From Tateyamaria omphalii (GTDB lineage Bacteria > Pseudomonadota > Alphaproteobacteria > Rhodobacterales > Rhodobacteraceae), in contig NZ_BMWT01000002.1 of the NCBI RefSeq assembly GCF_014651375.1, positions 935,477 through 999,476 on the forward strand: a DNA stretch of 64,000 bases, given 5' to 3'. Shown piece after piece: positions 7,586 to 26,116 of this stretch. The notes under the pieces were generated by a model that searched no databases, was not told where the DNA came from, and saw only the letters and a list, made by a program, of their open reading frames with translations. The stretch's first letter is position 1, and every line of letters starts with the position of its first letter. Made by a program: the position numbers and the translations under genes.

Positions 7586-8818
7586 ATGCAACTCAAGGAC
7601 CTCGACATCATCGTCACAGCACCCCCCGCCCCCGGCTGGGGAGGGCGGTATTGGATTCTCGTAAAGGTCACGACCGATGACGGCATCGTCGGGTGGGGCG
7701 AATGCTATGCCGCGTCCATCGGGCCGGGCGCGATGCGATCCGTTATCGAGGATGTGTTTGACCGGCACATGCGCGGGGAAAACCCGGAAAACATCGAATT
7801 GATGTTCCGCCGCGCGTATTCGTCGGGGTTTACCCAGCGGCCTGACCTCACCGTCATGGGGGCATTCTCCGGTCTCGAGATTGCGTGCTGGGATATTCTG
7901 GGCAAAGCGCGCGAGCGGCCTGTCTGGGCGTTGTTGGGCGGCAAAATGAATAAGCGCATTCGCGCATATACCTACCTCTACCCTCTGCAACATCATGGGC
8001 TTGATACGTTCTGGACTTCGCCCGAGATGGCTGCCGAGTCGGCGCTGGACTGTGTGACCCGCGGCTACACAGCTGTGAAGTTTGATCCTGCGGGTCCCTA
8101 CACAATGCGCGGCGGACATATGCCAGGGATGCGGGACATTTCGCAATCCGTGGCATTCTGCAAAGCCATCCGTGAAGCTGTGGGAGATAGGGCCGATCTG
8201 CTTTTTGGCACACATGGTCAGTTCACGACAGCCGGAGCAATCCGGCTGGGGCAGGCATTGGAGCCTTATTCCCCGCTATGGTTCGAAGAACCAATCCCAC
8301 CGGATGCGGTCGAAGAGATGGCAAAAGTGGCGCGCGCGGTTCGCATTCCGGTCGCTACAGGCGAGCGGCTCACTACCAAGGCCGAATTTGCGCCGGTCTT
8401 GCGCAGTGGTGCTGCCACGATCCTGCAACCGGCACTGGGACGTGCCGGCGGGATATGGGAGATGAAGAAGGTTGCGGCGATGGCCGAGGTCCACAATGCG
8501 CAAATGGCTCCGCACCTTTACGCAGGTCCGGTTGAGTGGGCTGCAAACATCCACCTGGCAGCTTCGATCCCGAACCTTTTGATGTGTGAAACGATTGAGA
8601 CGCCGTTCCACGATCAATTGATCAAGGGCAGCATCCAAGTGGACAGCGGTTTTGTCACACCGCCCGAGACACCTGGGTTGGGCATTGATGTCGACGAAGA
8701 TCTGGCCCGCGCGCACCCATACACAGGGGACGGTTTGCATCTGCAAATGCAAGAAGCACCTTGCGACTACGAAAAGGGCAACAATTTCGAGGGCGGAGCC
8801 CCAGCCCCGCGCGACTAG
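7586..8818 (+). CDS. mandelate racemase/muconate lactonizing (enolase superfamily) protein
   Basis: A 410-residue enolase-superfamily enzyme with the N-terminal capping domain (about 1-130) and a C-terminal barrel. Barrel residues visible are a lysine in TAVKFDPAG, acidic or His positions in LLFGTHGQ and WFEEPIPPD, the TGERL glutamate and a histidine in MAPHLYAGP. This pattern fits acid-sugar dehydratases of the mandelate racemase subgroup, which abstract a proton alpha to a carboxylate. The exact sugar acid cannot be read. Its stop overlaps the end of the convergent CIA30 gene by four bases. A role with the adjacent ADH or with the opposing cluster is inferred. Confidence 0.85.
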   Translation: MQLKDLDIIVTAPPAPGWGGRYWILVKVTTDDGIVGWGECYAASIGPGAMRSVIEDVFDRHMRGENPENIELMFRRAYSSGFTQRPDLTVMGAFSGLEIACWDILGKARERPVWALLGGKMNKRIRAYTYLYPLQHHGLDTFWTSPEMAAESALDCVTRGYTAVKFDPAGPYTMRGGHMPGMRDISQSVAFCKAIREAVGDRADLLFGTHGQFTTAGAIRLGQALEPYSPLWFEEPIPPDAVEEMAKVARAVRIPVATGERLTTKAEFAPVLRSGAATILQPALGRAGGIWEMKKVAAMAEVHNAQMAPHLYAGPVEWAANIHLAASIPNLLMCETIETPFHDQLIKGSIQVDSGFVTPPETPGLGIDVDEDLARAHPYTGDGLHLQMQEAPCDYEKGNNFEGGAPAPRD

Positions 8819-9345
8819 CGATAAAGGCGCACGGCGGACACAGCAATGTCCGCCTGCATCTCGCGCCCGATAGCAAGAATGCCGATACGACGCAGCCGTC
8901 TTACGTCAAAGCGCGCTTCAGTTCGGTGTGCGATAAAGGTGTCAAAAGGGACTTTGTGAGTGGACCATTCGCGCGGCGCTGTGAATTCGGTTCGAAACGA
9001 TTGCCACGGCCGCGTCAGCGCATCTGTTCGGAGGCGCAGATCGTAAGTCTCACCGTTGCCAACTACATCCAAAGCAATGCCGGTATAGCCACTGGCATCG
9101 AACACTGCGCCGTCGGCCAAGTCGGAAGCAATCTGAACAAAACCGCCATTGTTGTCGAGCGAAACGCTCCCAGTCAGACGGATTGCGTCACGACCCTGCA
9201 CCACTTGTCGAACGGCCTGCCCGGATGACACACCACCCATGACCGTATCGGCCACGTACTCCCATCGCGGGGTCAGATCGAGGGTTTCTGCATGCGCCAT
9301 TGCCACCCAGCATAGCAGGGCTACCGGTGCTGTGCAGCGGATCAT
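8815..9345 (-). CDS. CIA30-family (NADH:ubiquinone oxidoreductase intermediate-associated) protein
   Basis: About 176 residues starting at the ATG at 9345, which overlaps the preceding RraA-like stop as ATGA. It has an N-terminal signal-like segment (CTAPVALLCWVAMAHA). The body WEYVADTVMGGVSSG, then a jelly-roll-like run ending in GILAIGREMQADIAVSAVRLYR, is the CIA30/galactose-binding-like domain. Bacterial members are mostly uncharacterised and not proven complex I factors. The signal peptide suggests a periplasmic location. It is the last gene of the long minus-strand cluster. Confidence 0.8.
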   Translation of the reverse strand: MIRCTAPVALLCWVAMAHAETLDLTPRWEYVADTVMGGVSSGQAVRQVVQGRDAIRLTGSVSLDNNGGFVQIASDLADGAVFDASGYTGIALDVVGNGETYDLRLRTDALTRPWQSFRTEFTAPREWSTHKVPFDTFIAHRTEARFDVRRLRRIGILAIGREMQADIAVSAVRLYR

Positions 9346-10034
9346 GTGCGCGCGGCCTCGAACGCGGCCCACACTGTCTCAAACTCCTCAAAGCTGATCC
9401 GTTTGTCTTTTACCGCATCGAATACGATGACCTCTGACTGCATGAGGGTTGCGATCGCGTCCGCAAGACTTGCCTTCACCTCATTGGGGATCACCACGGC
9501 CCCATGCCGATCTGCGTGAACCAAGTCTCCAGGGTGGATGTCGAGACCATGAATACGCACCGGCTGATCATAGTCGATGACATGCACAAATCCATGGCTC
9601 GGGCCAACTGAGCCAGCAACTACAGGATAGTCTTCTGCAAGATCGCCAAGATCGCGCATCACACCGTCGGTGAGGGTGCCCGAAAGACCAAACGCCTTGT
9701 GAATATTCGTATTGACCTCGCCCCAGTAAGCGCCAACGGCGTTTGGCACATCCAGATCCTGGACGACGCAAATGCAGGGATGATCCCCTTCCGACATGTA
9801 TTTGTAGTAAGCCATGCGCCGGGCTTTGATAACTTCAGGTGCATCGGTCGGCGGAGCAACTGCGCGGATACGCGCGGTGCGGGCGTGGCCAACCATGACA
9901 CCATTCGCATCCGAAGCGAGCATCGTTCCACGTGTGAACGCATTGAACCCGCGCTTGCCCTGTGCCACTTCGATGGCGTTGCAAACAGTGGGCGTATCGA
10001 CAGACTTCAACAGATCATGCAGCGCATCATCCAT
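9342..10034 (-). CDS. RraA-family protein (HMG/CHA aldolase-like)
   Basis: A 230-residue RraA-fold protein. The motif GTLTDGVMRDLGDL holds the D-G-x-x-R-D pattern that binds metal and substrate in 4-hydroxy-4-methyl-2-oxoglutarate/oxaloacetate-decarboxylating aldolases. Further motifs are HADRHGAVVIP and an N-terminal DTPTVCNAIE. The family also contains the RNase E inhibitor RraA, but the catalytic-type motif and catabolic neighbours favour aldolase or decarboxylase activity. It starts three bases after the MetE-like stop and overlaps the CIA30 gene. Confidence 0.82.
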   Translation of the reverse strand: MDDALHDLLKSVDTPTVCNAIEVAQGKRGFNAFTRGTMLASDANGVMVGHARTARIRAVAPPTDAPEVIKARRMAYYKYMSEGDHPCICVVQDLDVPNAVGAYWGEVNTNIHKAFGLSGTLTDGVMRDLGDLAEDYPVVAGSVGPSHGFVHVIDYDQPVRIHGLDIHPGDLVHADRHGAVVIPNEVKASLADAIATLMQSEVIVFDAVKDKRISFEEFETVWAAFEAART

Positions 10035-10037: not shown

Positions 10038-11162
10038 TTATCCCTTCACCATGGCTGCGCCTTCGGATAAGGTCGCTAACTTGGCATAGGCAATCTCTGG
10101 ATCAACCGACCCAAAACCGGCAAACGTACCGAAGCCACAGTCACTGCCGGCAATCACGCGATCGGCACCAACGATATCGGTGAAGCGCTCGATACGCTGA
10201 CGGACCAATTCCGGGTGCTCGACAAAATTCGTGGTCGTATCAACGACACCTGGCACCAATACCTTGTCGTCTGGGATTTCGGCCCGACGGTCGCGGAAGA
10301 CCGTCCATTCATGGGCGTGGCGCGGGTTTGAGGTTTCAAACAACACGTACCGCGCCTTGGTCGACATCAATGTCGAGAACACCGTATCCATTGGGACATC
10401 ACAGGTATGCGGCCCCTCATAGTTGCCCCAACATATGTGCACACGAACCTTTTCTGAGGGCACATCAGCCAATGCATGATTCAGCGCCTCAACGTGCGCA
10501 TCGGCGATCTTGAGAAACTCTGCATCGCTCAGATCATTGAACAGCATGTGCCGTGACAGGGCGAGGTCTGGGCAATCCAGTTGCAGGTCCAGTCCTGCCC
10601 CCACAATCGTTTCATATTCGCTTTTCATCGCATCGGCGAGGGCCGCAAGATAGGCGTCGCGGGTTGGATAAAAATCATTCTGCAGAAAGAGCGAGATCAC
10701 ACCAGGCGAGGCCGCATTCATGAACCCGCGCTCAACCCCGTGTTTGGACATGGCGGTCTTAAGATTCGTGATGTCCTTCTCCAGCTCGCCCTGACCTTTG
10801 CTTTTGACCTCACCCGTGCACATGGGCCGGGCATATTTCGGGGTCCCCCCGTCGTCAGCGAGGCGCTTCAGAAAACTCGGAAACTGCTTGAGGTCGGCCG
10901 GTGCATTGCGGGGGCTGTCACCCGAGAAACCGGTGTAACGGTCCTTGACGTAGGTCGCGTAACTGATCTTCGATGTCTCGCCATCGCTGACGATGCCAAT
11001 ATTGGCAGCGACCTGCTTGGCGACCGTGTCGTCGACGGCTTGTGCCATTGCAGCGTCAAAGGCGGTCTGGTCAAAGCCCTCCCCACGTTCGCGGGCAAAG
11101 ATGAAATCAACAACTTCTTGTGTGCGGGGAAGTGACCCAACATGCGTTGTAACAATGGCCAT
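10038..11162 (-). CDS. cobalamin-independent methionine synthase (MetE) core-domain homologue
   Basis: A 374-residue protein matching only the C-terminal catalytic half of MetE. Four candidate zinc ligands are in place: His242 and Cys244 (VHICWGN), Glu276 (VLFETSN) and Cys342 (GSDCGFGTF). The N-terminus TTHVGSLPR is also typical. It lacks the N-terminal MetE half that binds polyglutamyl folate, so it is not an ordinary biosynthetic MetE. Such short homologues are thought to move methyl groups or to cleave thiol-linked substrates. Position in the ABC/catabolic cluster suggests action on a methylated or thiol substrate, which is inference. Confidence 0.82.
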   Translation of the reverse strand: MAIVTTHVGSLPRTQEVVDFIFARERGEGFDQTAFDAAMAQAVDDTVAKQVAANIGIVSDGETSKISYATYVKDRYTGFSGDSPRNAPADLKQFPSFLKRLADDGGTPKYARPMCTGEVKSKGQGELEKDITNLKTAMSKHGVERGFMNAASPGVISLFLQNDFYPTRDAYLAALADAMKSEYETIVGAGLDLQLDCPDLALSRHMLFNDLSDAEFLKIADAHVEALNHALADVPSEKVRVHICWGNYEGPHTCDVPMDTVFSTLMSTKARYVLFETSNPRHAHEWTVFRDRRAEIPDDKVLVPGVVDTTTNFVEHPELVRQRIERFTDIVGADRVIAGSDCGFGTFAGFGSVDPEIAYAKLATLSEGAAMVKG

Positions 11163-11176
11163 TTCGACGTCCTTTC

Positions 11177-12790
11177 CTATTGCGCTAACTCAGCGCCATT
11201 CCAATACCACGGAGTGTCACAGAACCCATCCGCACAGACAAAAGCCGTTCCGGCAAGCAATACGCCCACGCGGCCACTTGCGTCTTTTACAAAGTCGGCC
11301 GCGGTCCCCAACAAGTCTTCAGGTGTCGCGTATCCACGCGAGGACAAGAAGACGTCGATCCGGCAATTGGCGGCACCACAAAACGCGCGTCCTTGAACAC
11401 CGCCATTGCACGACACACCGGTCCAGTTCAGCAGAAAGTCGGCCAGGCCATCGCCATCGATGTCGCTAGCCTGCAATGCGGACGGATCCACAAAACTGAA
11501 CGGTCCCTGGCATAGCTTCCTAATGTGTGCATCCGCCGCCGCAGGCGGGGCATTGGGAATGGGCAAGCGCGGTGCAGGCGCAAACTGTATTGGCAAATCC
11601 TGGGTTGGCGTATCCGCTACCGCAACCTGCGCGCGGGCCACGGCGCCGGGATCGGCATCAAGCGGTCGTGCCTGAACCCGCGAAAATCCCGAACCCGACC
11701 ACGCCAACCAGGCGGAACACCCGAATGCACCTGCTGATGTGCCGCACACTCCTGTCCGCGTGTTCATGAACAGTGGCGCCGGACCATTGGGATCAGGTTC
11801 GGCGTGATAAGCCTGACCAATCCATTCGGACAGACCGCGCGCTGTCTGCGCAGATGAAAAGACTGTGACGCGACACTGGCCCGCGGAGTCGCATGCGCCA
11901 GGTACACCATGCACAGTCCCGTTCGGCCCCAAACACTCCACAAATCCCCAGTTCATGACGATATCCTCGGCCCCGTCGCCCTCTAGATCGCCAGGCCAGA
12001 GAGCACCTTCATTCAACCTTGCGGTGCTACAGACCGAATTTGCTGCACCGACGGCGCGGTCGTACATGCTCTGACCAGGCTGTATCGGCAGCACCGGAGG
12101 CACAAAGACGATGGCCGGACCGTCCTGTGGTTGCTGTCGGCGCAGCGGGATTCGGTCGGGATTCTGGGCGATCCCGTTGCGAGTGGCGGCGACCGCGCCA
12201 GCAACCGTGGGTGCGGTAGTCGCATACCGACCCAACGCGGCGGGAACTGGTCGGCCCAATTCCCCCCAGCGCGACACACAGACATAAAGCACCTGATCCA
12301 GCGCCCCGGCCAAACCAGAGACTCCAAAGTCAAAGGCCTGCCCCTGACCGGTGTCCAATATGAAACCCGGCGCCACGGTCAGCGCCTGCATCAATGGATC
12401 CACCATGGATAACCGAACAATTGTGCCACTGAATTCATCCAGTTCAAATGGCGGCAGACGGTATCCGGTTTGGCCCAGGAAAATGGTTGCGCCGGTCTGG
12501 ACCGAACCTCCTGACCAGTCGAAGTAAGGATCATACATCCGGACATAGACCTCATATGGGCCGGTCTGGTGTAACTCGTTCTCATAGCTTTCCAACGGAT
12601 CACGACCCTGCGGCGACGGGGCGGTGCAGGTGATGGTCATTGTGCCTCCGCCGTGCGCCGCCGAGGCATAAATGTTCGCACCCAGATCTTCGATCTTGGC
12701 CGTCCATGAAGGTACCGACTGCGCCAACGCCCCCGTCGCACAGGCGCAGGCAAGCAAGGCCGGCACCAGGTTTTTTAGTCCCGCGTTCAC
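11177..12790 (-). CDS. secreted protein with two aspartate-rich VCBS/FG-GAP-like motifs
   Basis: About 537 residues, started at the GTG at 12790, which overlaps the bicupin stop as GTGA. The N-terminus KNLVPALLACACATGALAQ is a signal peptide. Two motifs, DLEGDGAEDIVMNWG and DIDGDGLADFLLNWTG, each followed by Cys-containing segments, resemble calcium-binding VCBS or FG-GAP repeats. Paired cysteines suggest disulphides. No catalytic motif is recognised. It is probably periplasmic or extracellular, and a substrate-handling role with the ABC importer is only a guess. Confidence 0.65.
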   Translation of the reverse strand: MNAGLKNLVPALLACACATGALAQSVPSWTAKIEDLGANIYASAAHGGGTMTITCTAPSPQGRDPLESYENELHQTGPYEVYVRMYDPYFDWSGGSVQTGATIFLGQTGYRLPPFELDEFSGTIVRLSMVDPLMQALTVAPGFILDTGQGQAFDFGVSGLAGALDQVLYVCVSRWGELGRPVPAALGRYATTAPTVAGAVAATRNGIAQNPDRIPLRRQQPQDGPAIVFVPPVLPIQPGQSMYDRAVGAANSVCSTARLNEGALWPGDLEGDGAEDIVMNWGFVECLGPNGTVHGVPGACDSAGQCRVTVFSSAQTARGLSEWIGQAYHAEPDPNGPAPLFMNTRTGVCGTSAGAFGCSAWLAWSGSGFSRVQARPLDADPGAVARAQVAVADTPTQDLPIQFAPAPRLPIPNAPPAAADAHIRKLCQGPFSFVDPSALQASDIDGDGLADFLLNWTGVSCNGGVQGRAFCGAANCRIDVFLSSRGYATPEDLLGTAADFVKDASGRVGVLLAGTAFVCADGFCDTPWYWNGAELAQ

Positions 12791-13755
12791 TCCGGCACCC
12801 ACGTTGGACCAGCCGGGTCATCCGTACCTACGATGTGGTACAAAGACGCTTCTCCCGTCATGGAAGGCAACACCAAATGCGGCATGTTCTCAGGCATGCT
12901 CATCGTGTCACCCGGCGCAAGTGTCGCCGCGCCGCCCTCCCACGTGATCCTCCAATGCCCCCGCATCGGCATAAGAACACAAGGTTTGCTATGGCTATGC
13001 CAAGTGTCACTGGCGCTGCTGCGCGTGATCAAATCCACTTCGAAACCCGGCTTGTCGCGAATGATACCTGTCTCTCCAATCACCTTGCAGGGTGCGTCCT
13101 TGGCCAGACAAACCATGTCCCAATAGCGCCGCACCCCCATACCAACAACTTGCGCAGGTGACATCTCGGGAAAATCCGTAAGCTCCTCGCTGGTCAGCAA
13201 GGGCATGGGGTTCACGCCTTCAGGCAGGTTTTCTCCCTTTTTGGAATCGTAAAGGCTGCCATTCTCACCAAGCACCAAACCGTGATCTGTTGCATCCTCA
13301 ATCACTTGTGGAGCCCAGATGACACCACCGCCTGCATCATCCCCACCAAGGATCGCCATAATCATCCCATAGTCGGTGCCGATGTTTTCGAACCCGCGGA
13401 AGATACCAGTGGGGATGTTAATAATGTCCCCCTCTTCCAGCACCACCTCGCCCGCCGTGCCCCAACGACCCCAGAAAAAGCGCCAGCGGCCCGATAGAAC
13501 AAAGAACACCTCTGCCGTGCGATGCGAATGAAGCGAGTTGCGGCACTTCGGCGGTTGCCCTGCCGCCCCGATGTTGAACCCATGCGGAATGGAAATGTGG
13601 ACATGCTGATCCGGGCTTTCCGACACACCACCGCCAATGATGGTAAAGTTTTCCTTCTGGTCGCTCCCTGGCGTATGCGCGTCGATGAACGCGGTCTTGC
13701 AAGGCATGAGGTCGCCATAGCGCACGATGCGCGGCTCCATCTCGGCGGGGGTCAT
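12787..13755 (-). CDS. bicupin protein
   Basis: A 322-residue protein with two cupin barrels. The first has HSHRTAEVFFVLSG (His76, His78, Glu82). The second has WHSHSKPCVLMPMRGHW (His253, His255) and a late His293 in MPHLV. Both barrels seem able to bind a metal, although the second lacks the usual glutamate position. Bicupins include gentisate-type dioxygenases, oxalate decarboxylases and sugar-acid binding proteins. It lacks the full gentisate dioxygenase signature, so a ring-cleaving role is not claimed. It overlaps both neighbours by four bases. Confidence 0.78.
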   Translation of the reverse strand: MTPAEMEPRIVRYGDLMPCKTAFIDAHTPGSDQKENFTIIGGGVSESPDQHVHISIPHGFNIGAAGQPPKCRNSLHSHRTAEVFFVLSGRWRFFWGRWGTAGEVVLEEGDIINIPTGIFRGFENIGTDYGMIMAILGGDDAGGGVIWAPQVIEDATDHGLVLGENGSLYDSKKGENLPEGVNPMPLLTSEELTDFPEMSPAQVVGMGVRRYWDMVCLAKDAPCKVIGETGIIRDKPGFEVDLITRSSASDTWHSHSKPCVLMPMRGHWRITWEGGAATLAPGDTMSMPENMPHLVLPSMTGEASLYHIVGTDDPAGPTWVPE

Positions 13756-14288
13756 GTTTGGGTCCTTTCATGTGGGAGGGTCGGATCGGGCAACGGATCG
13801 CCCGGTATTGTCTTGGTGATATCAGAGTGAATCCAGACCATGCGGTCCACGAACCAGACCTTGGGCAGTATGGTCGCAACCAAACCGAGGCCCGTAGCCC
13901 ACGGGTTCAAAGAAATCAGGCCATAGATAAGGGGCAACAGACCTAAGGCCGACAAAGCCGTCAGGATGTTTGCGGCACGCATGTGATGGGCGGCGATCCG
14001 ATAGTGACTCCGCGCCAGGAAGATACGCTCGCCCAATGTACCACGCGACGCCCAACTACCGAAGTCAGCAGGCGGTGGAAAAGCGCGCGGGTTCGCCCAT
14101 GTCCAGACAGCGGCCAGCAGAAACAGTGGCATCGCCCACCAGCCGATCCACTGGCGCGCATAGATTGCCAGAACCATCATTGGCAGGCACGTGAATCGTG
14201 TCCAGACGCTGAGCGGGTTCGCATGACGCCGCCAGTCGGCATCCTGCATCCCCATCAGGCGTTCGGCGGCACGATAAAGGTCAGTCAT
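13752..14288 (-). CDS. DUF6653 family membrane protein
   Basis: A 178-residue integral membrane protein with four hydrophobic stretches: MMVLAIYARQWIGWWAMPLFLLAAVW as a pair, then ILTALSALGLLPLIYGLI and ATGLGLVATILP. The N-terminal ERLMGMQDADWRRHANPLSVWTRF and the C-terminal KVWFVDRMVWIHSD are the recognisable DUF6653 blocks. Function unknown. It is coupled by ATGA overlaps to the pyridoxamine-oxidase-like gene before it and to the bicupin after it. Confidence 0.75.
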   Translation of the reverse strand: MTDLYRAAERLMGMQDADWRRHANPLSVWTRFTCLPMMVLAIYARQWIGWWAMPLFLLAAVWTWANPRAFPPPADFGSWASRGTLGERIFLARSHYRIAAHHMRAANILTALSALGLLPLIYGLISLNPWATGLGLVATILPKVWFVDRMVWIHSDITKTIPGDPLPDPTLPHERTQT

Positions 14289-14899
14289 CCTTGCCCCTTC
14301 AGCAATGCGTTCTCGGCTTCCAATGCTGCGATCCGCGCATTCAGCTTGTCCAATTCGGGAGCAATTAATTGCGCGATCTCGGACGCATCAAAGCGCGGTG
14401 CAATGAACTGGGGGCAGTTCCAGTCAAAGGCTTCAAGGCGGATCGTCACCAACCGTTCAACGCGACCCTGCCCGTCCACGGCCAGTTTCTGAGCAAGGTC
14501 CGGGTTGCCTTGCGCCTGTTCAAAGGTGGCGCGCCCCTGCAACTTCATCCGCGCCTTGCGCGGGTAGTCCATCAGGAAGAGGGACACGCGGTCATCTCCC
14601 GCCAGATTGCCCTCGCTGATATGTTGCTTGTTGCCGCGGTAGTCCGCGAAGGCGAGCGTGTGATCGTCCAACACCTTGAGAAATCCGGCAGGTCCGCCGC
14701 AGTGCTGGATGTAGGGCCAGCCGGTTTCGGAGACCGTCGCCATGTAGAACGAAGTGCGCGAGGCAACAAAAGCCACTTCGTCTGCGGTCAAGGCATGGGT
14801 GCGCGCGCCGTAGCTGCGGGCGTACATCTCCGTAGAGCCGTCTGCCTCTTGCAGTGATTTCACAGCATCCGTGAACATCAGCTCATCATAGCGCTTCAC
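14285..14899 (-). CDS. pyridoxamine 5'-phosphate oxidase-fold protein
   Basis: About 204 residues. A split-barrel flavin- or PLP-binding domain spans residues 25-150 (FYMATVSETGWPYIQHCGG, FADYRGNKQHISEGNL, VSLFLMDYPRKARMKLQG). A C-terminal heptad segment, LDKLNARIAALEAENALLKG, looks like a short coiled coil. The GTG at 14899 was chosen for the GGGGTA upstream; the ATG at 14878 is possible. Members are flavin-dependent reductases, haem-degrading enzymes or flavin-binding proteins. The substrate is unknown, but a redox step in the cluster's pathway fits. Confidence 0.78.
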   Translation of the reverse strand: MKRYDELMFTDAVKSLQEADGSTEMYARSYGARTHALTADEVAFVASRTSFYMATVSETGWPYIQHCGGPAGFLKVLDDHTLAFADYRGNKQHISEGNLAGDDRVSLFLMDYPRKARMKLQGRATFEQAQGNPDLAQKLAVDGQGRVERLVTIRLEAFDWNCPQFIAPRFDASEIAQLIAPELDKLNARIAALEAENALLKGQG

Positions 14900-17652: not shown

Positions 17653-18284
17653 AACGACAGCCTCCCTTTCAGTTCAGAGTAATCCACCATCACATGCGTC
17701 CGATACGCGGCCCGCTCGGTCAAGGCGTCGTAGTAGTCTTGCGTGCCCGCAGGCACCCGCCGATCCAGATCAAGCGTGAAGTAGCGATAGAGAATGTGAC
17801 CGACCCAGATGTCCGCAAGTCCCAGAGTTTCTCCTGACATCCACGCCCGCGCGCCCCGTTCCGACATTGCCACGGCAAGGTTGGCTTCAAACTGGCGCAA
17901 AGCGTGACCCACGGCTGCCAAGTCCCGCACTGCTTCGGGGGTGCGGTAGTAAGCCCAAAACAGCGGTACGGTAAATGACCGACACAGCGTATGCTTGGCC
18001 CACTCGGCCCACATGTCATCGCGTGGTGATGCCACAACGCCGCCTTCGCCATACTGCGTCACAAGATACCGAAGGATGGCCGCGCTCTCGAACATTACCC
18101 TGTCGCCATCTTCCAGGACCGGGACAAGCCCCATCGGATTCATCCGCCTAAAAGCCGGAGTGTCCGTGCCACCAAACCGACCTCCGACATCCTTGCGCTC
18201 AACAGCCAACCCAAGCTCGGCAGCGCCCCACATCACAGCCTGTACATTTGACGAAGAGGCGCGCCCATGGATGATCAGCGTCAT
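17649..18284 (-). CDS. glutathione S-transferase family protein
   Basis: A 211-residue GST. The N-terminal thioredoxin fold contains GRASSSNVQAVMWGAAELGL (Ser active-site region) and the substrate-side motif PVLEDGDRVMFESAAILRYL, where ES binds the glutamyl group. The C-terminal helical domain has GLADIWVGHILYRYF. It overlaps both neighbours by four bases. In a catabolic cluster it may cleave an ether or thioether, isomerise a bond or remove a reactive intermediate. Which of these applies cannot be read here. Confidence 0.88.
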   Translation of the reverse strand: MTLIIHGRASSSNVQAVMWGAAELGLAVERKDVGGRFGGTDTPAFRRMNPMGLVPVLEDGDRVMFESAAILRYLVTQYGEGGVVASPRDDMWAEWAKHTLCRSFTVPLFWAYYRTPEAVRDLAAVGHALRQFEANLAVAMSERGARAWMSGETLGLADIWVGHILYRYFTLDLDRRVPAGTQDYYDALTERAAYRTHVMVDYSELKGRLSF

Positions 18285-19327
18285 AGCGCCCGCCCCATTT
18301 CAGGGTCGAACCCGGTGCGCGCCTTGTTGAACTCTCGCATCCGGGCCAGAACATCGACACCGATCTGGTCGTACATGTGCAGCAAATCGACCATGACCCA
18401 ATTCTCTCGGATCAATCCTTTTTCAATGCGCCAGAAGTCTAGACTGCGCATTTCGATCCGTTTGTTCACAGGCGGGATGCCCAACCACCCGTCATGGGTG
18501 ATGGTCTGATACATATCTGGCCAGCCGGTGACCGCAGCAAAGGGCCCATCACCAAAGAAATGATAGGTGATCTCATCGATGTATTTCCCTCGATCCGGCA
18601 TGCCATTCAGGAACGGAATCTGATGCCAGTTACGGAACCCCGAGATGCCGCGCCCTGACCCGATACCGCTTGGTCCGTACCACATCATCTTGGGGTGCCA
18701 GAAGCGCTCCATTTCCATCACTTCAGGCCCACCCTGGCTTGGGTGCTTCTTGAGATGATCCAGCATGTCGATGATATGCTGGCAGGACGCGTCGCTGGTC
18801 GCGTCGTCACGTGGGCCTTCCACAAGACCGTTGCACATTGCGGGACCCGGCACATGCCATTCCCGCCCCAGTGACGGCACCATAGGCCAGGCGTTCGCCT
18901 GCATCATCACCTCTGGAATGTCCCAAAGGGCCTGCATCTCGACGATCTTGTCATTCTCGAATCGGTAGAATTCGTGAAACCGCATGTGGACGATGTGGCC
19001 GGTCGGCGGGATATCCAGCCAAGGAGCCGTGAACGTGCCGGTGTAGTAACCACCACACCCAACCCAATCGGCACCATCCGGTGTCGGACCCGAGATCACG
19101 ATATGGTCCCGCCTCTCAAGGTCAGGCCACGCTTTGGCCAGTGCACCATAGGCACGATCCACATGCGCATCCACACCTGTCACAGTCTCGAAAGGGAAAG
19201 CGAGGCGGAATACGACGTCAGGCGTGCACAGGGCATGCAACTGCGCCCGCACCGTATCCAAGTCAAAGTCATACAAAGCCTGCCGGAAAGGTGCGATCAG
19301 GGCCTTGTGCCGCGAGTGAGGATCCAT
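18281..19327 (-). CDS. tandem NTF2/SnoaL-like (ester cyclase type) protein 2
   Basis: A 348-residue protein with two SnoaL-like domains (about 5-155 and 195-335). The first has FEDV-type pocket segments such as YYTGTFTAPWLDIPPTGH and FHEFYRFENDKIVEMQALWD. The second has GWLGIPPVNKRIEMRSLDFWRIEKGLIRENWVMVDL. The repeated IPPxxxxxxMRxxxFxRxExxKIxE pattern is the SnoaL/ester-cyclase signature. AGGGATAAG precedes the ATG. It is a homologue of the proteins at 14907 and 20701, and its function is unknown. Confidence 0.8.
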   Translation of the reverse strand: MDPHSRHKALIAPFRQALYDFDLDTVRAQLHALCTPDVVFRLAFPFETVTGVDAHVDRAYGALAKAWPDLERRDHIVISGPTPDGADWVGCGGYYTGTFTAPWLDIPPTGHIVHMRFHEFYRFENDKIVEMQALWDIPEVMMQANAWPMVPSLGREWHVPGPAMCNGLVEGPRDDATSDASCQHIIDMLDHLKKHPSQGGPEVMEMERFWHPKMMWYGPSGIGSGRGISGFRNWHQIPFLNGMPDRGKYIDEITYHFFGDGPFAAVTGWPDMYQTITHDGWLGIPPVNKRIEMRSLDFWRIEKGLIRENWVMVDLLHMYDQIGVDVLARMREFNKARTGFDPEMGRAL

Positions 19328-19362: not shown

Positions 19363-20691
19363 CTACTCCGCCGCATCACGCGCAGGTGCGCCTTCGCCGT
19401 AGGGGACGTTGATCCCGCCATACCGGCGCACCCGCAGATTGCACTGCTCGGCGTGGCCAACGAACCCTTCCAACATGCAAAGCCGCGAGCCGTAAGCGCC
19501 AATCTCTGCCGCTGCCTCATCGGTCGTCACTTTCTGATAGCTATGCGTCTTGAGGTACTTGCCGACCCAGAGACCACCCGTATAGCGGCCTGCCTTCTTG
19601 GTCGGCAGGGTGTGGTTGGTGCCTATCACCTTGTCCCCATTCGCCACATTTGTCCGGGGGCCAAGGAACAGAGCGCCATAACATGTCATGTGTTCGAGGA
19701 ACCAGTCGTCCCGATCCGTCATCACTTGAACATGTTCAGAGGCGACATCATCAGCCACCTGCAGCATCTCTTCGTATGTGTCGCAAAGGATGATCTCTCC
19801 ATAATCCTCCCAGCTTTTGCGGGCAGTATCGGCAGTGGGCAGAATGCCGAGGATGCGTTCGATCTCCGCCGCTGTCTCATCCGCCAACTTGCGCGAGTTG
19901 GTGAGCAGGACGGCAGGGGAGTTGTAGCCATGTTCGGCCTGCCCGAGCAGGTCCGTGGCACACATCTCTGCATCGACAGTTTCGTCGGCGATCACCATTG
20001 TCTCCGTCGGACCGGCAAAAAGATCGATGCCCACACGGCCAAAAAGCTGGCGCTTGGCTTCGGCCACAAAGGCGTTGCCCGGACCGACCAGCATATGCAC
20101 TGGATCAATGGTCTCAGTTCCGATGGCCATGGCACCCACGGCCTGAATGCCTCCCATAACATAGATTTCGTGCGCACCACCAAGGTGCATGGCGGCAATA
20201 ACGGCAGGGTTCGGCTTGCCCTGCCACGGCGGTGTGCACGCAATGATACGCGGAACTCCGGCAACAGAGGCGGTTGCCACGGACATGTGAGCCGAGGCCA
20301 CCATGGGGAACTTGCCCCCCGGCACGTAACAGCCCACGGACTGCACCGGGATGTTCTTGTGGCCCAGGATCACACCCGGCATCGTCTCGACCTCGATATC
20401 CAGCATCGAGTCCCGCTGTGCCTGGGCAAAGTCGCGGACTTGTTGCTGCGCGAACTTGATATCCTCCATTTCGCGCGGGGTCAGTTCGGCCATCAGGGCT
20501 TCGATCTCGGCTTCAGTCAGGCGGAAGCTCTCGGGGCTGTAATTATCAAACTTCTCCGACAGCTCCCGTACAGCTGCATCGCCGCGCGCCTCAATGTCAG
20601 CCAACGTGGCCTCGACAATGGCGCGCGTCTTGGCATCATCCTCGGCCCGCTCTGCCTCGGGCTTGCCGCGCTTCAAATACTCGATTGTCAT
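19363..20691 (-). CDS. histidinol dehydrogenase-family protein, probably catabolic
   Basis: A 442-residue HisD homologue. The zinc-ligand equivalents are present: Gln and His in [10 protein letters not shown], Asp in [13 protein letters not shown] and a C-terminal His in EGFVGHAEQ. The catalytic Glu-His pair is in ASEHVQVMT. No other histidine gene is nearby and the neighbours are ABC transport and SnoaL genes. It is therefore more likely a catabolic paralogue, such as the sulfopropanediol 3-dehydrogenase HpsN group, than biosynthetic HisD. It would oxidise an alcohol to an acid in two NAD steps; the substrate is unknown. Confidence 0.85.
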
Positions 20692-20700: not shown

Positions 20701-21231
20701 TCAGTTGTCGGGTCGCGGCGGTGTCTTGTCGCCACGATCGAAGGCTTCCCAGCCCTCACCATCAAAAACGTCCCGCCCCAACTGGGCGAGGACGTGGGGA
20801 AAATCGACCATCACGAAGTTGTCGGTGATGCGGCCATCTTCGACCTTCCAGAAATCCATGTATCGGATCTCGATCCGCTTGCCGGTGGGCGCAATCCCCA
20901 TGAATTCGCCAGCATGGGTGGCTTCCTGTCGACCAAAGGCCGCAGCCCACTCCCCCATATACAGCCGTGCCTCGTCCACGCAGACCTTATCGGCAAAGGC
21001 CGCCTGAAAGGGGCGTTGCCAGTTGTCCTGAAACTCTTGCAAGCCCGTCTTGGTGCCGCATCCCTGATTTCCCATCCAGCGGAAGGACTGGGCAAAGAAC
21101 TGGCCAATATCATCAATGCGGTGGTCGTTCAGACCATCCACCATCCCCTCAATAACCGCGCGCGTTTCCTCGGTCTTGGTCATGTCAGTGTCGCGGGTCA
21201 GAACCGCTTGCTCGGGGCGGGATCCCTTCAT
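20701..21231 (-). CDS. single-domain NTF2/SnoaL-like protein 3
   Basis: A 176-residue SnoaL-like protein with the pocket signature FMGIAPTGKRIEIRYMDFWKVEDGRITDNFVMVDFP. AAAGGA stands seven bases before the ATG at 21231, so this start is preferred to the internal ATG at 21183. It resembles the second half of the 348-residue protein downstream, suggesting duplication. It is the first catabolic gene after the transporter genes, behind an unusual hairpin (21242-21293). Confidence 0.8.
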   Translation of the reverse strand: MKGSRPEQAVLTRDTDMTKTEETRAVIEGMVDGLNDHRIDDIGQFFAQSFRWMGNQGCGTKTGLQEFQDNWQRPFQAAFADKVCVDEARLYMGEWAAAFGRQEATHAGEFMGIAPTGKRIEIRYMDFWKVEDGRITDNFVMVDFPHVLAQLGRDVFDGEGWEAFDRGDKTPPRPDN

Positions 21232-21357: not shown

Positions 21358-22509
21358 TCAGCCTTTGACCGCCCCCGCTGTCAGCCCCGACACGATCTGG
21401 CGCTGGAACACCATGACCAGAAGGAACAGGGGTGCCGTGATAGACACAGCTGCAGCGACTGCCTCGACCTGGTCAGTCGTGGTCGTCTCGCGGTTGAAGT
21501 AGCCCGCGATGGCCGGAACCATGGTCTGGTTCTGTGCATCAAGCAGCAGCGCCGTGACAAGGAAATCGTTGTAGCCCAGAAGGAAGCTGAACAGCCCCGT
21601 CGTGATAACCCCCGGCCACATGACGGGCATGATCACACGGCGAAACGCCTGGAAATGGCTGCACCCGTCCACGCGCGCCGCCTCGTCCAACTCGGATGGG
21701 ATGTTCTGGAAGAACGACCGCAGCATCCAGATAGTGAAGGGTTGGTTGATTGCCACGAGCACGGCGATAATCGCCCAGGGCTGGCCATAGAGTGTCGGGC
21801 TGAGATCGCCCAGGATCGGGCGCAGGATTTCTGCCGAGTTGATGAACCACGGCAGGTAGCCAGCTACCAGCACCGAGTGCGGCAAGGCGCGGAAGACAAG
21901 CGCGATGATCAGGAGCCAGAAGGCGAGGTTCGAGCCGGAGCGTGCGAGGCCGTAGCCCGCGAGCGTACCGACCGTGAGCGACACCGTCACCACGCCCGCA
22001 GTCACGATCATCGAGTTGATGAAGTTGCGGTAGAACTGGTTCTCGCCCCAGACCGCCACGTAGTGCTCGGTTGTCAGGCCGAGGATCGGCGTACCGAGCG
22101 GACCGGCAATGCTGTTGAGCATGCCGAAGACCAAAGGCAGTGCTCCAAAAAAGATCAGCACAAACAGCAGGCCATAGACCGCCGCGCCCACGAGCCAGCC
22201 CAGCACGATGAAGCCAGGGGGCGAGTATTGCTCAACCATGCCCGGCAGCCGGGTGAACGCCCAGCGGATCGCGAAGTAGAGCACGATCAAGCCCAGAAGG
22301 ATGTCGAGTAAACTGAGGCCATTGCCCGCCGCCCGCGTAGCGGGTCCGGTGATCACGTTCCACGCACTTGCATCAAAGGCATCGCGCGGGGATTTCACGC
22401 TCATCACCGCGATCCACGCGATGGGGAAGGCCGCGATGAGGCACCAGAAGGCGAGGAAAGCGCCGGATGCGACCTTGAGGGACAGCGGCTGCGCGGTGGC
22501 TTTGGACAT
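21358..22509 (-). CDS. CUT1-type sugar ABC transporter permease, MalG-like, with extra membrane segments
   Basis: A 383-residue inner-membrane permease. The EAA loop DEAARVDGCSHFQAFRRVIMPVMWPGV, which contacts the ATPase, lies near residue 275. A typical MalG-type permease has about 280 residues. Here about 85 extra residues with hydrophobic stretches (LLDILLGLIVLYFAIRW, FIVLGWLVGAAVYGLLFVLI) lie between TM1 (FPIAWIAVMSVKSP) and the usual LTTEHYVAVW region. Its start overlaps the stop of the other permease by one base. It imports the cluster's substrate together with the genes upstream. Confidence 0.9.
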   Translation of the reverse strand: MSKATAQPLSLKVASGAFLAFWCLIAAFPIAWIAVMSVKSPRDAFDASAWNVITGPATRAAGNGLSLLDILLGLIVLYFAIRWAFTRLPGMVEQYSPPGFIVLGWLVGAAVYGLLFVLIFFGALPLVFGMLNSIAGPLGTPILGLTTEHYVAVWGENQFYRNFINSMIVTAGVVTVSLTVGTLAGYGLARSGSNLAFWLLIIALVFRALPHSVLVAGYLPWFINSAEILRPILGDLSPTLYGQPWAIIAVLVAINQPFTIWMLRSFFQNIPSELDEAARVDGCSHFQAFRRVIMPVMWPGVITTGLFSFLLGYNDFLVTALLLDAQNQTMVPAIAGYFNRETTTTDQVEAVAAAVSITAPLFLLVMVFQRQIVSGLTAGAVKG

Positions 22510-23537
22510 TAATGTGCCCCCCCTTTGTGGTCACGCCAGGTGCGGCGCAGCGGTAGGATCAGCAGGATCACAATGCCTACCATTGTCAGCATTGCGCTCG
22601 CTGCCGCCCGGCTGATCGCGCGGTTGCCGGCGTCATCCGGTGTCAGGAAATCGAAGGTCAGCCATTGCAGCGAAATCACATGCGCCTGACTGCGGAAGCC
22701 GATGATTTCGTCAAAGACGCGGTAGCAGTCCATCAGGTGGATCAGCGCGATGAAGATGATCAAAGGCATCAGATGCGGAATGATGACATAGCGCAGACGT
22801 TCAAAACGGTTCGCTCCGTCAATGATAGCACTTTCCAGTGTGTCCATGTTCACGGTCTGCAGACCGGCATAGAAGATCACGAAGGCAAAGGGCGCGACGT
22901 GCCACACGCGGTAGAAATACATCAGCAGCTCAATCGTCCAGGCTTGGGCAAACATCGCGATGTCACGATCAAGCCAACGCTCCAGCGTCGCCGTCAGAAT
23001 GCCGTCACCCACAAACAGCCAGTAGATCGAAAGCGATCCAATGACCGGTGTGATGATGAAAGGGAGGAGCGAAATGAAGATGACTGGCCCGCGCAAAGCC
23101 TTGGTCGCGTTGTTGACCGCCAACGCGATCATCAGACCCACACCAATCACAAGGGGCAAGGTTACAAGGGTGAACATCAACGTGAACCGCAGCGCCTTCC
23201 AGAAATCGATCTGAAGGATGTCACCCCAATTTCCGGAGCCGATGGCGGCCCAGAATTTGTCCATCTGCAAGACGTTCTGGTAGCTCTGCACACCCACCCA
23301 GGCTGTTGTTGTCTGCGTCCTGCCCGTTTCCTCGTCGATTACTGGGACTGTCTTGATCTCCGTCGTGCAAGTCTGGGTCAAAAAGCCGGGGGTACAGGTT
23401 TCGACCTCAATCTGCTGCATGACAGGTTGGGTAATCTGGAAAGACTGGATGAAGACCGAAATCAAAGGCGCCGCGATAAAAAGCAACATCATGAACACCG
23501 ATGGTGCCACGAACCAGAAGAAGGTTTTGAACTTCAT
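22509..23537 (-). CDS. CUT1-type sugar ABC transporter permease, MalF-like
   Basis: A 342-residue permease started at the ATG at 23537, behind GGAAAGGAC. After TM1 (FWFVAPSVFMMLLFIAAPLI) comes an unusual periplasmic loop of about 60 residues with two cysteines (VETCTPGFLTQTC) before the usual TM2. The EAA loop ESAIIDGANRFERLRYVIIPHLMPL is intact. Partner of the 383-residue permease. The loop could form a disulphide-bonded cap that contacts the binding protein, which is inference. Confidence 0.9.
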   Translation of the reverse strand: MKFKTFFWFVAPSVFMMLLFIAAPLISVFIQSFQITQPVMQQIEVETCTPGFLTQTCTTEIKTVPVIDEETGRTQTTTAWVGVQSYQNVLQMDKFWAAIGSGNWGDILQIDFWKALRFTLMFTLVTLPLVIGVGLMIALAVNNATKALRGPVIFISLLPFIITPVIGSLSIYWLFVGDGILTATLERWLDRDIAMFAQAWTIELLMYFYRVWHVAPFAFVIFYAGLQTVNMDTLESAIIDGANRFERLRYVIIPHLMPLIIFIALIHLMDCYRVFDEIIGFRSQAHVISLQWLTFDFLTPDDAGNRAISRAAASAMLTMVGIVILLILPLRRTWRDHKGGAH

Positions 23538-23746: not shown

Positions 23747-23754
23747 TAAGTTGC

Positions 23755-24975
23755 TTACTGCAACACGCCGGCCTCTTTGGCCGAAGTGGTGTAGGCTTCT
23801 TCCACAGCCGCAAGCGTCGCTGCGGCATCACGGTCACCGGTCAGGAATGCAGGCAGTTCGTTGCCCAGCGCGGTGTGCAGCAGACCCATCTGCGTCGTGG
23901 ACGGATACGCAGGCGGTGCGGGATTGGCGGTCGCCGTTGCAATTGCACCCTCGGCCAGCGGGCCGGGTTGGTAACCGTTCACGAGCCAGATTGCGGCCTC
24001 GTTGTTGGCAATGACCATGTCCGCATCCAGCCCCTCCATTGCCAGACGGAAGGCTGCGTCTGCCTCCTCGTCGGTGATGTTGGCCGCGATCACGATACCA
24101 TCCCACCACAGGGTCGTGGCAGGCGCACCGCCGTCCATTGCCATAGGTGCCGCGGCCATGGTGACCTTGCCGACAACCTGGCTTTCGTTCTCGTCATTCA
24201 TCGCACCAGCACGCGAAGCCCACAGGTTCGCCATGGCGATCTTGCCCTGTTGGAACTGCTGCTGAACGTACGTGGAGTCGCTGACCAGAACCTCTGGATC
24301 GGTGTAATCCAGCGTCTTCTTCATAGCCGCCAGCGCCTTCATCCCGGCGTCCGAATTCACCGCGGCGGTGTTGTCGTCGTTAAAGAACGCCCCACCAAAG
24401 CCCGGATACATATTCACGAATTCCTGGGCGAGGTTCCAGCCCGACTTCATGGTCGCGCCAATGGCGTGATCGACGACACCTGCTTCCTTGATCTTATCAG
24501 CGGCAGCGAACACTTCGTCCCACGTTGTGGGGGTGTCGATGCCCAGATCAGCCAGAATATCGCTGCGATACATCAGGTGCTGTGTGTTCACCATCATCGC
24601 CACGGCCATGATCTTGCCATCCACGCGGATCAACTGGTTGGGCGAAAGGTTCTGACCGTACTTCGCCACCAGATCATCCAGCGGGCGAATGGTGCCCGCG
24701 TTCAGCAGCGGCGTGACGGTGCCGTTCGACACACCACCGATGTGATATAGCGATGGGTTCGCCTCGAACGCCGCGGGTTGCTTGGTGCGGAATTCCTGGT
24801 CCAGTTCGGCCTGGAAGTTGCCGCACTCGGCCATGGCGTCGGTCACGGCTTTCCACGCCTCAAAACCCGCTGTCAACGACTTGAGCGGCACCTCGTTTTC
24901 GTAGGAACACGCGGCAAAGGCCGTGGTGCCCAAAAGCGAGACAGCGCCCGCCAGTGCCAATTTCTTCAGATACAT
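23755..24975 (-). CDS. ABC transporter extracellular solute-binding protein
   Basis: A 406-residue cluster-B (family 1, sugar-type) binding protein. The N-terminus MYLKKLALAGAVSLLGTTAFA is a signal peptide with cleavage after AFA. The mature protein has typical segments such as KQPAAFEANPSLYHIGGVSNGTV, DDLVAKYGQ and TTWDEVFAAADKIKEAGV. It delivers a carbohydrate-like or polyol-like ligand to the permeases encoded next. The ligand cannot be inferred. It is separated from the permease genes by a strong hairpin. Confidence 0.92.
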   Translation of the reverse strand: MYLKKLALAGAVSLLGTTAFAACSYENEVPLKSLTAGFEAWKAVTDAMAECGNFQAELDQEFRTKQPAAFEANPSLYHIGGVSNGTVTPLLNAGTIRPLDDLVAKYGQNLSPNQLIRVDGKIMAVAMMVNTQHLMYRSDILADLGIDTPTTWDEVFAAADKIKEAGVVDHAIGATMKSGWNLAQEFVNMYPGFGGAFFNDDNTAAVNSDAGMKALAAMKKTLDYTDPEVLVSDSTYVQQQFQQGKIAMANLWASRAGAMNDENESQVVGKVTMAAAPMAMDGGAPATTLWWDGIVIAANITDEEADAAFRLAMEGLDADMVIANNEAAIWLVNGYQPGPLAEGAIATATANPAPPAYPSTTQMGLLHTALGNELPAFLTGDRDAAATLAAVEEAYTTSAKEAGVLQ

Positions 24976-25069
24976 TTACAGACTCCCTGTTGTGTTTGAC
25001 GCCAGTGCATCTTGCAAGGCTGCACTGGCCGGATTGGTCCGCCCGGATGCCTCCGGACAAACAAGTTCC

Positions 25070-26116
25070 TCAGGCAAGACGTTCGCCGGAAGAAGAATCA
25101 AATGCGTGGCAGATGCCCGCAGGAACCGAGAAGGACACTGTGTCACCGATCTCGGCCCGGAATTCCTTGTGCGCTTTGATCGACACAAGCTGCCCACCAG
25201 CGCGCACGGTCAGCATCGTGGCATCCCCAAGCAACTCAATCGTGTAGATCGGCGCGGTGATTTGGCCATCGCTTTCAGCCAAAGCCGCGTCCTCCGCTCG
25301 AAAGCCCAGTGTGGCCGGACCATCTGGTGCCGACAGACCGCTGATCGTGACATTGTCGCCGGCAAACGTGCCCCCATTGACCGTGCCGTCCATCAGGTTC
25401 ATGGCTGGCGAACCGATGAAGCTGGCCACAAAGGTGTTGGCGGGCCGGTCGTAAATCTCCGTCGGCGTGCCAACCTGTTGGACCTTGCCCTGCTTCATCA
25501 CGACGACACGGTCGGCCAGGGTCATCGCCTCGATCTGGTCGTGTGTCACGTAAACGGTTGTGACTTTCAGCTCGTGGCTGAGGTTCTTGATCTGGGCACG
25601 GGTCGACACACGCAGCTTGGCATCGAGATTCGACAACGGTTCGTCCATAAGGAACACGTTGGGCTCGCGCACGATGGCCCGTGCCAGCGCCACACGCTGA
25701 CGCTGGCCGCCCGACAACTCCGCCGGTTTGCGGTGTAGGAACTCGTCCAGCTCAACCATGGCAGAGGCGCGGCGTACCTTCTCGTCGTGCGAGGCCGGAT
25801 CGACCTTGCGCACCTTCAGCGGGAAGCGGATGTTTTCATAGACATTGAGATGCGGGTACAAGCCATAGGACTGGAACACCATCGCGACATCCCGGTCCTT
25901 GGGGTCCAGATCGTTGACGCGCTTGCCATCGATCATGATGTCGCCTTCAGTTGCATCTTCAAGCCCGGCAATCATGCGCATCGTCGTCGTCTTGCCACAG
26001 CCTGACGGACCAAGCAGAACCAGGAATTCTTCATCCGCGATGGTTAGGTCAAAATTGTCGACGCCGACAAATGTGCCCCACCGCTTGTTCAAGTTACGCA
26101 GCTGGATTTCCGCCAT
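25070..26116 (-). CDS. sugar ABC transporter ATP-binding protein (UgpC/MalK type)
   Basis: A 348-residue ATPase. Walker A GPSGCGKTT is at 36-44, the Q-loop at VFQSYGLYPH, signature LSGGQ at 134-138, Walker B FLMDEP at 155-160, the D-loop SNLDAKLR and H-loop VTHDQ. A C-terminal TOBE/OB domain of about 110 residues follows, as in MalK and UgpC. GGGGGA precedes the ATG. It is the first gene of the long minus-strand cluster and lies just downstream of the LacI-type palindrome. Confidence 0.93.
   Translation of the reverse strand: MAEIQLRNLNKRWGTFVGVDNFDLTIADEEFLVLLGPSGCGKTTTMRMIAGLEDATEGDIMIDGKRVNDLDPKDRDVAMVFQSYGLYPHLNVYENIRFPLKVRKVDPASHDEKVRRASAMVELDEFLHRKPAELSGGQRQRVALARAIVREPNVFLMDEPLSNLDAKLRVSTRAQIKNLSHELKVTTVYVTHDQIEAMTLADRVVVMKQGKVQQVGTPTEIYDRPANTFVASFIGSPAMNLMDGTVNGGTFAGDNVTISGLSAPDGPATLGFRAEDAALAESDGQITAPIYTIELLGDATMLTVRAGGQLVSIKAHKEFRAEIGDTVSFSVPAGICHAFDSSSGERLA

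Follow-up and report, generated by a model that had tools for sequence, protein, structure and literature searches.

In a stretch of 64,000 nucleotides from the genome of Tateyamaria omphalii (contig NZ_BMWT01000002.1, positions 935,477-999,476; hereafter the window), 18 co-oriented open reading frames (ORFs) on the minus strand tile positions 8815..26116. We tentatively read this cluster as an island of catabolic genes under LacI repression. Its substrate would be a polar ring compound carrying a methoxy group, with mycosporine-like amino acids (MAAs) or the gadusol core of these as the most likely candidates. That the cluster is LacI-controlled and catabolic is very likely in itself. The original prediction had proposed a LacI-controlled unit, and one such unit is supported here by a conserved predicted operator upstream of the first gene and by the conservation of a 13-gene core.

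The double SnoaL protein SnoaA2 (18281-19327) served as the seed of the comparison. The set comprised 120 related loci (the best 80 of 584 and 40 further ones), 115 of them distinct by SnoaA2 sequence. A gene was counted in a locus when tblastn matched the window gene; the transporter counts include a few matches to other, distant importers. The conserved core consists of the four importer genes (UgpC/MalK-type ATPase, SBP_bac_1 binding protein and two BPD_transp_1 permeases), LacI, three SnoaL-type proteins (one single-domain and two double-domain), a HisD homologue, an SDR, a bicupin, a MetE core and an RraA-type protein. Twelve of these genes each recur in at least 87 loci. RraA recurs in 60, a lower bound because many locus stretches stop short of the rraA position. 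The usual order, ATPase, binding protein, permeases, snoaS, hisD-like, snoaA2, SDR, lacI, snoaB2, bicupin, metE, rraA, is maintained across alphaproteobacterial families and in some gammaproteobacteria, and a divergent double SnoaL gene often precedes the ATPase. Since the core is kept in so many loci, mostly in one order, the cluster is not a product of chance. The joint conservation on which the original prediction depended was checked and holds for 13 of the 18 genes. The other five (GST, PPOX, DUF6653, hyp541 and CIA30) are local additions, each present in 4-7 loci, and a single set of all eighteen genes is not supported.

Two to four double SnoaLs are present in 101 of the 103 core loci, i.e. 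those with both the HisD-like gene and the bicupin. ORF clustering brought out two recurrent genes that the window does not have: 47 loci encode an alpha/beta hydrolase and 30 an Amidohydro_2 protein. At another site the host genome encodes a hydrolase 57% identical to the former, and its best amidohydrolase match to the latter reaches 28%. On a 77-kb plasmid of Paracoccus alcaliphilus, a copy running from the divergent SnoaL through RraA, without metE, lies between mobilisation genes and a LysR gene, and this copy shows where the unit ends. The closest named proteins to SnoaA2 come from roseobacters of the Tateyamaria type. Of 149 genomes sampled from the same family, 50 gave a SnoaA2 match at E <=0.001. 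A profile search at E 1e-40 detected it in 22 of 398 genomes from the phylum and 28 of 385 from the class, samples that share some genomes. A lone double SnoaL paralogue (31%) is found in the host genome without a cluster around it (L183, G000:C5:114000-133900, 10111-11247).

The palindrome TTGCA-N6-TGCAA was detected 5′ of the ATPase gene in 78 of the 89 loci whose LacI is at least 58% identical, and 77 of these copies have a CG centre. As a control, the regions 5′ of eight other cluster genes were searched, and the palindrome was seen in 4/88, 3/92, 2/102, 0/102, 0/81, 0/87, 0/58 and 0/89 loci. It occurs at nine places in the whole host genome; two have the CG centre, namely the cluster copy (TTGCACACGTGTGCAA) and a copy with ACCGGT, which looks like a site for a different regulator. 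When one mismatch was allowed, 3 matches were found in the window as against 3.2 expected by chance; hence it is the position and conservation of the operator that matter and not its count. In genome G126, metE and the hydrolase gene sit on a different contig, where TTGCATACGCTTGCAA stands some 90 bases ahead of the likely metE start (inferred from length). As the operator precedes this relocated pair, both genes belong to the regulon. A second palindrome, TTTGCAACCGGTTGCAAA, was found in many genomes and set aside as a site of another regulator. It is probably the operator of another conserved LacI-type protein and was seen in G055, G075, G086, G089, G530, G532 and G045 (once with one change), often paired at a distance of about 4-8 kb.

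The cluster might instead be no single system, being a housekeeping importer next to unrelated genes or several operons thrown together. The 94-, 126- and 217-base gaps within the transporter part, the five genes that are not conserved and the occurrence of lower-module genes apart from the cluster (see below) could be taken that way. Against this stand the core order kept in alphaproteobacterial families and in some gammaproteobacteria, the bounded Paracoccus copy and an operator that moves along with metE, and we regard the possibility as very slight.

The nearest solved relative of the HisD-like protein is HpsN (E 9.5e-118), followed by HisD. As described in the available part of PMC11382572, HpsN has the motif G-R-Y-A/S-H, the His of which binds the sulfonate, and HisD has G-S-A-P-L. 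In the window protein the HpsN motif is replaced by G-K-F-P-M and the HisD motif fails as well; the catalytic Glu319-His320 and Asp353-Lys354 of the HpsN active site are kept. K-F-P-M was present in 76 of 76 aligned HisD-like proteins of the loci. Over all loci (127 instances, duplicates included) the counts were KFPM 114, RYSH 5, KYPL 4, and one each of GYPM, KYPM, LASY and RFPL. A DNA search found the motif in 36 of 36 chosen genomes with SnoaL as compared with 4 of 30 without. Identity is 37% to the likely true HisD of the host and 46% to the HpsN types. The protein passes TIGR00069 above its cut-off, a model that does not separate HpsN-type proteins. Judged by its own motif in place of that of HpsN, the homologue is a member of a third HisD-fold subfamily and not an HpsN. 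A proteomic record of hisD in Roseobacter litoralis could not be tied to the cluster from the accessible part of the paper (PMC4103551).

The first pathway considered was sulfonate catabolism of the kind that degrades 2,3-dihydroxypropanesulfonate (DHPS), the HisD homologue being nearest to HpsN. An SDR is present, and SmoF is among the distant matches of the binding protein. The hpsN/hpsO/hpsP operons of Roseobacteraceae likewise combine a HisD-fold dehydrogenase with an SDR, an importer and a regulator. The window differs from them in its G-K-F-P-M motif, in a CUT1 ABC importer instead of TRAP, and in the added SnoaLs, MetE core, bicupin and RraA. The pathway was dropped because the HpsN motif is absent from all 76 aligned proteins and HpsN-motif proteins are encoded elsewhere in the genome; nor was a sulfite-releasing gene recognised in the cluster. 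Besides one likely true HisD, the host has two HpsN-motif proteins, 87% identical to each other. One (L185, contig C11) belongs to an hps-like set: beside it lie an SDR, an MDR and three proteins that look TRAP-like by eye. The other (L186) lies at the start of C2 near the contig end. With no HpsN-motif protein in the cluster and an hps-like set on C11 instead, a DHPS operon is highly improbable.

The remaining core enzymes were compared with known families. For the SnoaL proteins the NTF2 fold was confirmed, with conserved acids (Asp136, Asp297 and Asp314 do not vary across 34 sequences); no function was claimed from a fold match alone. Identity to the double NTF2-fold epoxide hydrolases Lsd19/MonB and to SnoaL-type cyclases is only about 14-24%, and the setting here is catabolic, with an importer. 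The MetE-core protein shares with the Core MetE/methionine synthase II family the Meth_synt_2 domain and His242, Cys244, Glu276 and Cys342, presumably the zinc ligands of this fold, which are conserved at >=97% in up to 88 sequences. It differs in lying inside a catabolic regulon and far below all methionine-synthase cut-offs (best score 80.9 bits against 406). The nearest solved sequence to the bicupin is acireductone dioxygenase, at only E 0.0044. Its model is closest in fold to quercetin 2,3-dioxygenase, tied with oxalate decarboxylase and vicilins. His76, His78 and Glu82 of its metal site are invariant, and Arg120 occupies the place of the fourth ligand expected for the quercetinase type (His, His, Glu, His). 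CHA/HMG aldolases of the LigK/PcmE type have the motif D-X20-R-D, an acidic residue followed after 20 residues by Arg-Asp. In the RraA-type protein Glu106-X20-Arg127-Asp128 is conserved, with Glu in the position of Asp, and TIGR02798 (LigK/PcmE) gives 31.9 bits against 304.5 (E 9.2e-8), below its cut-off.

From the gene content, conservation, operator, HisD subfamily and fold classes observed here, we infer the substrate, the order of steps and every reaction of the following scheme. The compound would be taken up by the ABC importer, and an inducer would free LacI from TTGCA-N6-TGCAA. SnoaL enzymes would then remove amino acids from the cyclohexenimine ring, with paralogues for different substituents, and the O-methyl group would be taken off by the MetE-core protein. 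The C5 -C(OH)-CH2OH would be converted to a carboxylate by the HisD-like enzyme in a four-electron oxidation, and the resulting reductone ring would be opened with O2 by the bicupin. Finally, RraA would split the ring-opened product, with the carbon skeleton of 4-carboxy-4-hydroxy-2-oxoadipate, into pyruvate and oxaloacetate. The scheme assigns no firm role to the SDR, the alpha/beta hydrolase or Amidohydro_2. In 4-deoxygadusol, the MAA core, a methoxy group sits between two oxygenated carbons of the ring, and a tertiary carbinol carries CH2OH. RraA-type aldolases such as LigK/GalC act on 4-carboxy-4-hydroxy-2-oxoadipate. By our own mapping, CH2OH oxidation, demethylation and C1-C2 cleavage of 4-deoxygadusol would give the seven-carbon skeleton of the latter compound. 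NTF2-fold enzymes such as ketosteroid isomerase and scytalone dehydratase act on cyclohexenones, and the several double SnoaLs per core locus would suit different amino-acid substituents. Bacteria convert shinorine and porphyra-334 to mycosporine-glycine and 4-deoxygadusol, according to the portion available of a review (PMC3083659).

Several observations are consistent with MAAs as substrate. The HisD-like subfamily keeps the catalytic residues and is devoid of the sulfonate-reading His; the zinc ligands of MetE are conserved; RraA has sub-cut-off similarity to LigK/PcmE; the bicupin fold is nearest to quercetinase; and all are part of one conserved, operator-controlled unit. To these are added an archaeal gene set, genes of glycine, serine and threonine metabolism near divergent clusters, and an ARD-like cupin in one variant locus, all described below. 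Other observations weigh against it. No gene is diagnostic of MAAs, the link being drawn from gene content. The bicupin has Arg120 at the fourth-ligand position, and its fold match is shared with oxalate decarboxylase and vicilins. Neither rraA nor HpcH is found in 37 of the 103 core loci, although many of these stretches, which were not checked individually, end early. Some HisD-like genes have no double SnoaLs with them, and one such gene lies next to a ribose-type importer and a xylose-isomerase-like protein. Sugars or sugar acids fit the SDR, the lactonase-like hydrolases, the enolase seen in some loci and the CUT1/LacI context, and kbl was not found within 50 kb of the clusters of family genomes.

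The archaeal set is carried by a plasmid of Halobellus limi, a solar saltern isolate (L156, 165-19310). It comprises four double and one single SnoaL, a MetE-II protein and an ABC importer, together with a syringate/3-O-methylgallate-type O-demethylase (DesA, E 4e-141), a catechol 2,3-dioxygenase-type (extradiol) protein (E 1e-73) and an HpaI-type aldolase, all three below their cut-offs, as well as an aldehyde dehydrogenase and a threonate/3-hydroxyisobutyrate dehydrogenase-type protein. By analogy, these non-homologous enzymes match the chemistry that MetE, the bicupin, RraA and the HisD-like enzyme could perform in the window. The same gene set, the quercetinase-like bicupin and the ARD-like cupin would also suit another methoxylated aromatic or reductone-like compound, such as a methoxyphenolic algal metabolite or an ascorbate-like enediol, degraded by the same logic of demethylation, ring opening and aldol cleavage. 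The -CHOH-CH2OH group is indeed the one oxidised by HpsN in the account available to us (PMC11382572). Such a substrate would leave the amino-acid genes near divergent clusters unexplained and would probably not need several SnoaL paralogues, and ascorbate has no methyl group; we hold it to be distinctly unlikely.

In the comparison with gallate/methoxyphenol catabolism (LigM/DesA demethylase, ring-cleaving dioxygenase, CHA aldolase LigK/GalC), the proposed lower pathway has the same order of chemical types and an RraA-type aldolase, and the DesA-like protein of Halobellus is a further likeness. The cluster differs in having a bicupin and not a LigAB-type dioxygenase, in most cases a MetE core and not DesA/LigM, and in its SnoaLs and sugar-type importer.

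The amino-acid genes bearing on the MAA reading are found in few loci. In a Halomonas cluster, tdh-kbl is embedded within. On plasmid p-2 of Ensifer adhaerens (L157, L162), a kbl-tdh pair is flanked by two SnoaL-ABC clusters, with a second LacI beside kbl that is 52% identical to the cluster LacI. A vibrio-type unit (L159, L166, L187, L188), on a plasmid in V. europaeus and also present in other genomes, has an MFS transporter, a double SnoaL, a porin and LacI facing a sodium symporter and an L-serine ammonia-lyase, the latter 3.3 kb from a SnoaL in all four loci. Altogether, kbl was seen in 3 of 152 loci (one at only 34%) and serine ammonia-lyase in 4 of 152, all of this one unit. Among 50 family genomes searched, none of the 32 with a match had kbl within 50 kb on the same contig, contigs often ending nearby, and the amino-acid argument is thereby weakened. 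Sarcosine oxidase near L155 and L152 was at about chance level by a rough estimate and was not used as support. Sulfatase-type proteins were noted near L166 and L170 and, by eye, near L187 and L191.

HisD-like genes were also found outside complete clusters. The companion in L192 is RraA and in L195 an SDR. In L193 the neighbours are LacI, a ribose-type importer, a xylose-isomerase-like protein, an ARD-like cupin and an alpha/beta hydrolase. L194 has an importer, LacI, amidase, SDR, bicupin, hydrolase and RraA and, of the SnoaLs, only a SnoaB2-like fragment. L196 has no SnoaL, its set being an importer, LacI, bicupin, hydrolase and RraA, and L197 has TRAP-like genes, RraA and HpcH. These loci suggest that the HisD-like enzyme, cupin, hydrolase and aldolase form a lower module that can stand apart, with the SnoaLs and MetE as the upper one. 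The transporter also varies among loci (ABC, SSS, TRAP-like, or MFS with a porin), some having TonB receptors nearby. HpcH/HpaI aldolases were present in 5 of 152 loci. HpcH as a substitute for RraA was considered and not adopted: rraA is absent from the portions of L163, L165 and L172 that were examined, but L112 has both genes and 37 of the 103 core loci show neither.

The main alternative to MAA breakdown is that a sugar, sugar acid or polyol is degraded oxidatively. Here the SDR and the HisD-like enzyme would oxidise the substrate, a lactonase (Amidohydro_2 or the alpha/beta hydrolase) would open the lactone, a dehydratase (enolase superfamily or SnoaLs, by lineage) would form a 2-keto-3-deoxy acid, and RraA or HpcH would release pyruvate. 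It is favoured by the sugar-type importer and LacI, by an SDR nearest to KduD/2-deoxygluconate dehydrogenases, by an Amidohydro_2 protein nearest to L-fucono-1,5-lactonase and an enolase nearest to sugar-acid dehydratases (both below cut-off), and by the sugar-related neighbours in L193. It gives no role, however, to two to four double SnoaLs, to a MetE core kept in 87 of 120 loci or to the O-demethylase and extradiol dioxygenase families of Halobellus, and the enolase is present in only 10 of 120 loci. This pathway appears only somewhat less likely than MAA breakdown.

The features of the window are listed in Table 1. Assignment of all 18 ORFs with Pfam and NCBIfam agreed with the families named earlier, and their number, common orientation and frequent overlaps were also borne out. 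With three starts trimmed (permease 1, PPOX and CIA30), 9 of the 17 junctions overlap, by 1, 4, 13 or 16 bases; the other eight are gaps of 3, 9, 14, 28 and 35 bases and the three longer ones of the transporter part. The longest ORF starts of these three genes probably lie too far upstream, and the starts adopted, chosen by overlap and homologue length, probably fit the neighbours better. The window gave no hits in Rfam or tRNA scans.

Table 1. Genes of the cluster, its predicted operator and the adjoining enolase gene (x/120, related loci with a match)
Feature	Position	Strand	Evidence
Predicted LacI-type operator, TTGCACACGTGTGCAA	26184..26199	.	Centre 75 bases before ATPase start; by eye overlaps -35 (TTGCCA) / -10 (TAGCCT) promoter
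ABC importer ATPase, UgpC/MalK type	25070..26116	-	PRK11650 E 6.1e-135, above its cut-off; 97/120
Solute-binding protein, SBP_bac_1	23755..24975	-	Nearest solved 5iai E 1.7e-15, SmoF E 6e-11; 99/120
Permease 1 (start trimmed from 23651)	22509..23537	-	BPD_transp_1; 100/120
Permease 2	21358..22509	-	BPD_transp_1; 100/120
SnoaS, single-domain SnoaL	20701..21231	-	SnoaL E 3.2e-18; 91/120
HisD-like dehydrogenase, G-K-F-P-M subfamily (motif residues 126-130)	19363..20691	-	Histidinol_dh E 3.1e-135; 102/120
SnoaA2, double SnoaL (NTF2-fold), seed	18281..19327	-	Pfam; model mean pLDDT 89.1, two NTF2-fold domains
GST-like protein, local addition	17649..18284	-	GST_N E 1.2e-11; 6/120
SDR oxidoreductase, KduD/gluconate dehydrogenase-like	16891..17652	-	Family matches; 100/120
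LacI-family regulator	15872..16906	-	Family matches; 107/120
SnoaB2, double SnoaL	14907..15884	-	SnoaL + SnoaL_2; 111/120
PPOX-type flavoprotein, local addition (start trimmed from 15070)	14285..14878	-	PNPOx_N E 3.2e-11; 7/120
DUF6653 protein, local addition	13752..14288	-	E 4.3e-47; 4/120
Bicupin, proposed dioxygenase	12787..13755	-	Cupin_2; model mean pLDDT 89.3; 94/120
hyp541, no Pfam match, hydrophobic N-terminus by eye, local addition	11177..12802	-	Weak matches (24-29%) in 4/120
MetE-core protein	10038..11162	-	Meth_synt_2; 87/120
RraA-type protein, proposed aldolase	9342..10034	-	RraA-like E 7.6e-18; at least 60/120
CIA30-family protein, local addition (start trimmed from 9372)	8815..9345	-	CIA30 E 8.9e-26; 6/120
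Enolase-superfamily protein, convergent; occasional neighbour, membership uncertain	7586..8818	+	Nearest solved 3t4w, 3rcy; 10/120

Two flanking genes, for an alcohol dehydrogenase (ADH) and the enolase-superfamily protein, had been described as divergent and as possible members. Both lie on the plus strand (ADH at 6422-7516) and are convergent with the cluster, the 3′ end of the enolase gene overlapping that of CIA30 at 8815-8818. No exact operator copy was found 5′ of either gene in the window. The enolase gene stands at an end of the loci that have it and may be an occasional helper of uncertain membership; eight of its matches are 85-93% identical, one, from a SAR324 locus, is 54% identical and one 28%. 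Its close solved relatives are named only as mandelate racemase/muconate lactonizing enzyme-like. For ADH nothing indicates membership, its matches being confined to 6 loci, three close (82-92%) and three distant (25-34%). Near the cluster end, a PcaB-type lyase is encoded at 3800-5122 (+), with a match to the 3-carboxy-cis,cis-muconate cycloisomerase model below its cut-off. Upstream of the cluster lies an acyl-CoA dehydrogenase gene (27313-28674, -), a family also present in 6 of the 120 loci.

Regulated islands that join an importer to enzymes are already known; the gene combination and the HisD subfamily are new. A literature search, which left most subscription journals and preprints outside its coverage, turned up neither a paper on this gene set nor one on genes for MAA catabolism. 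As sunscreens, MAAs abound in algae, corals and cyanobacteria. On the tentative reading preferred here, marine and hypersaline microbes would share a gene set for complete bacterial MAA breakdown under one LacI operator, and the cluster would be a genetic marker for the fate of the MAA carbon and nitrogen pool. Whatever the substrate, the cluster defines by sequence a HisD subfamily with its own motif and a core of 13 regulated genes. The SnoaL family of this core is present in a third of the sampled genomes of the family. The cluster also offers a setting for testing SnoaL and MetE-core proteins for new roles.

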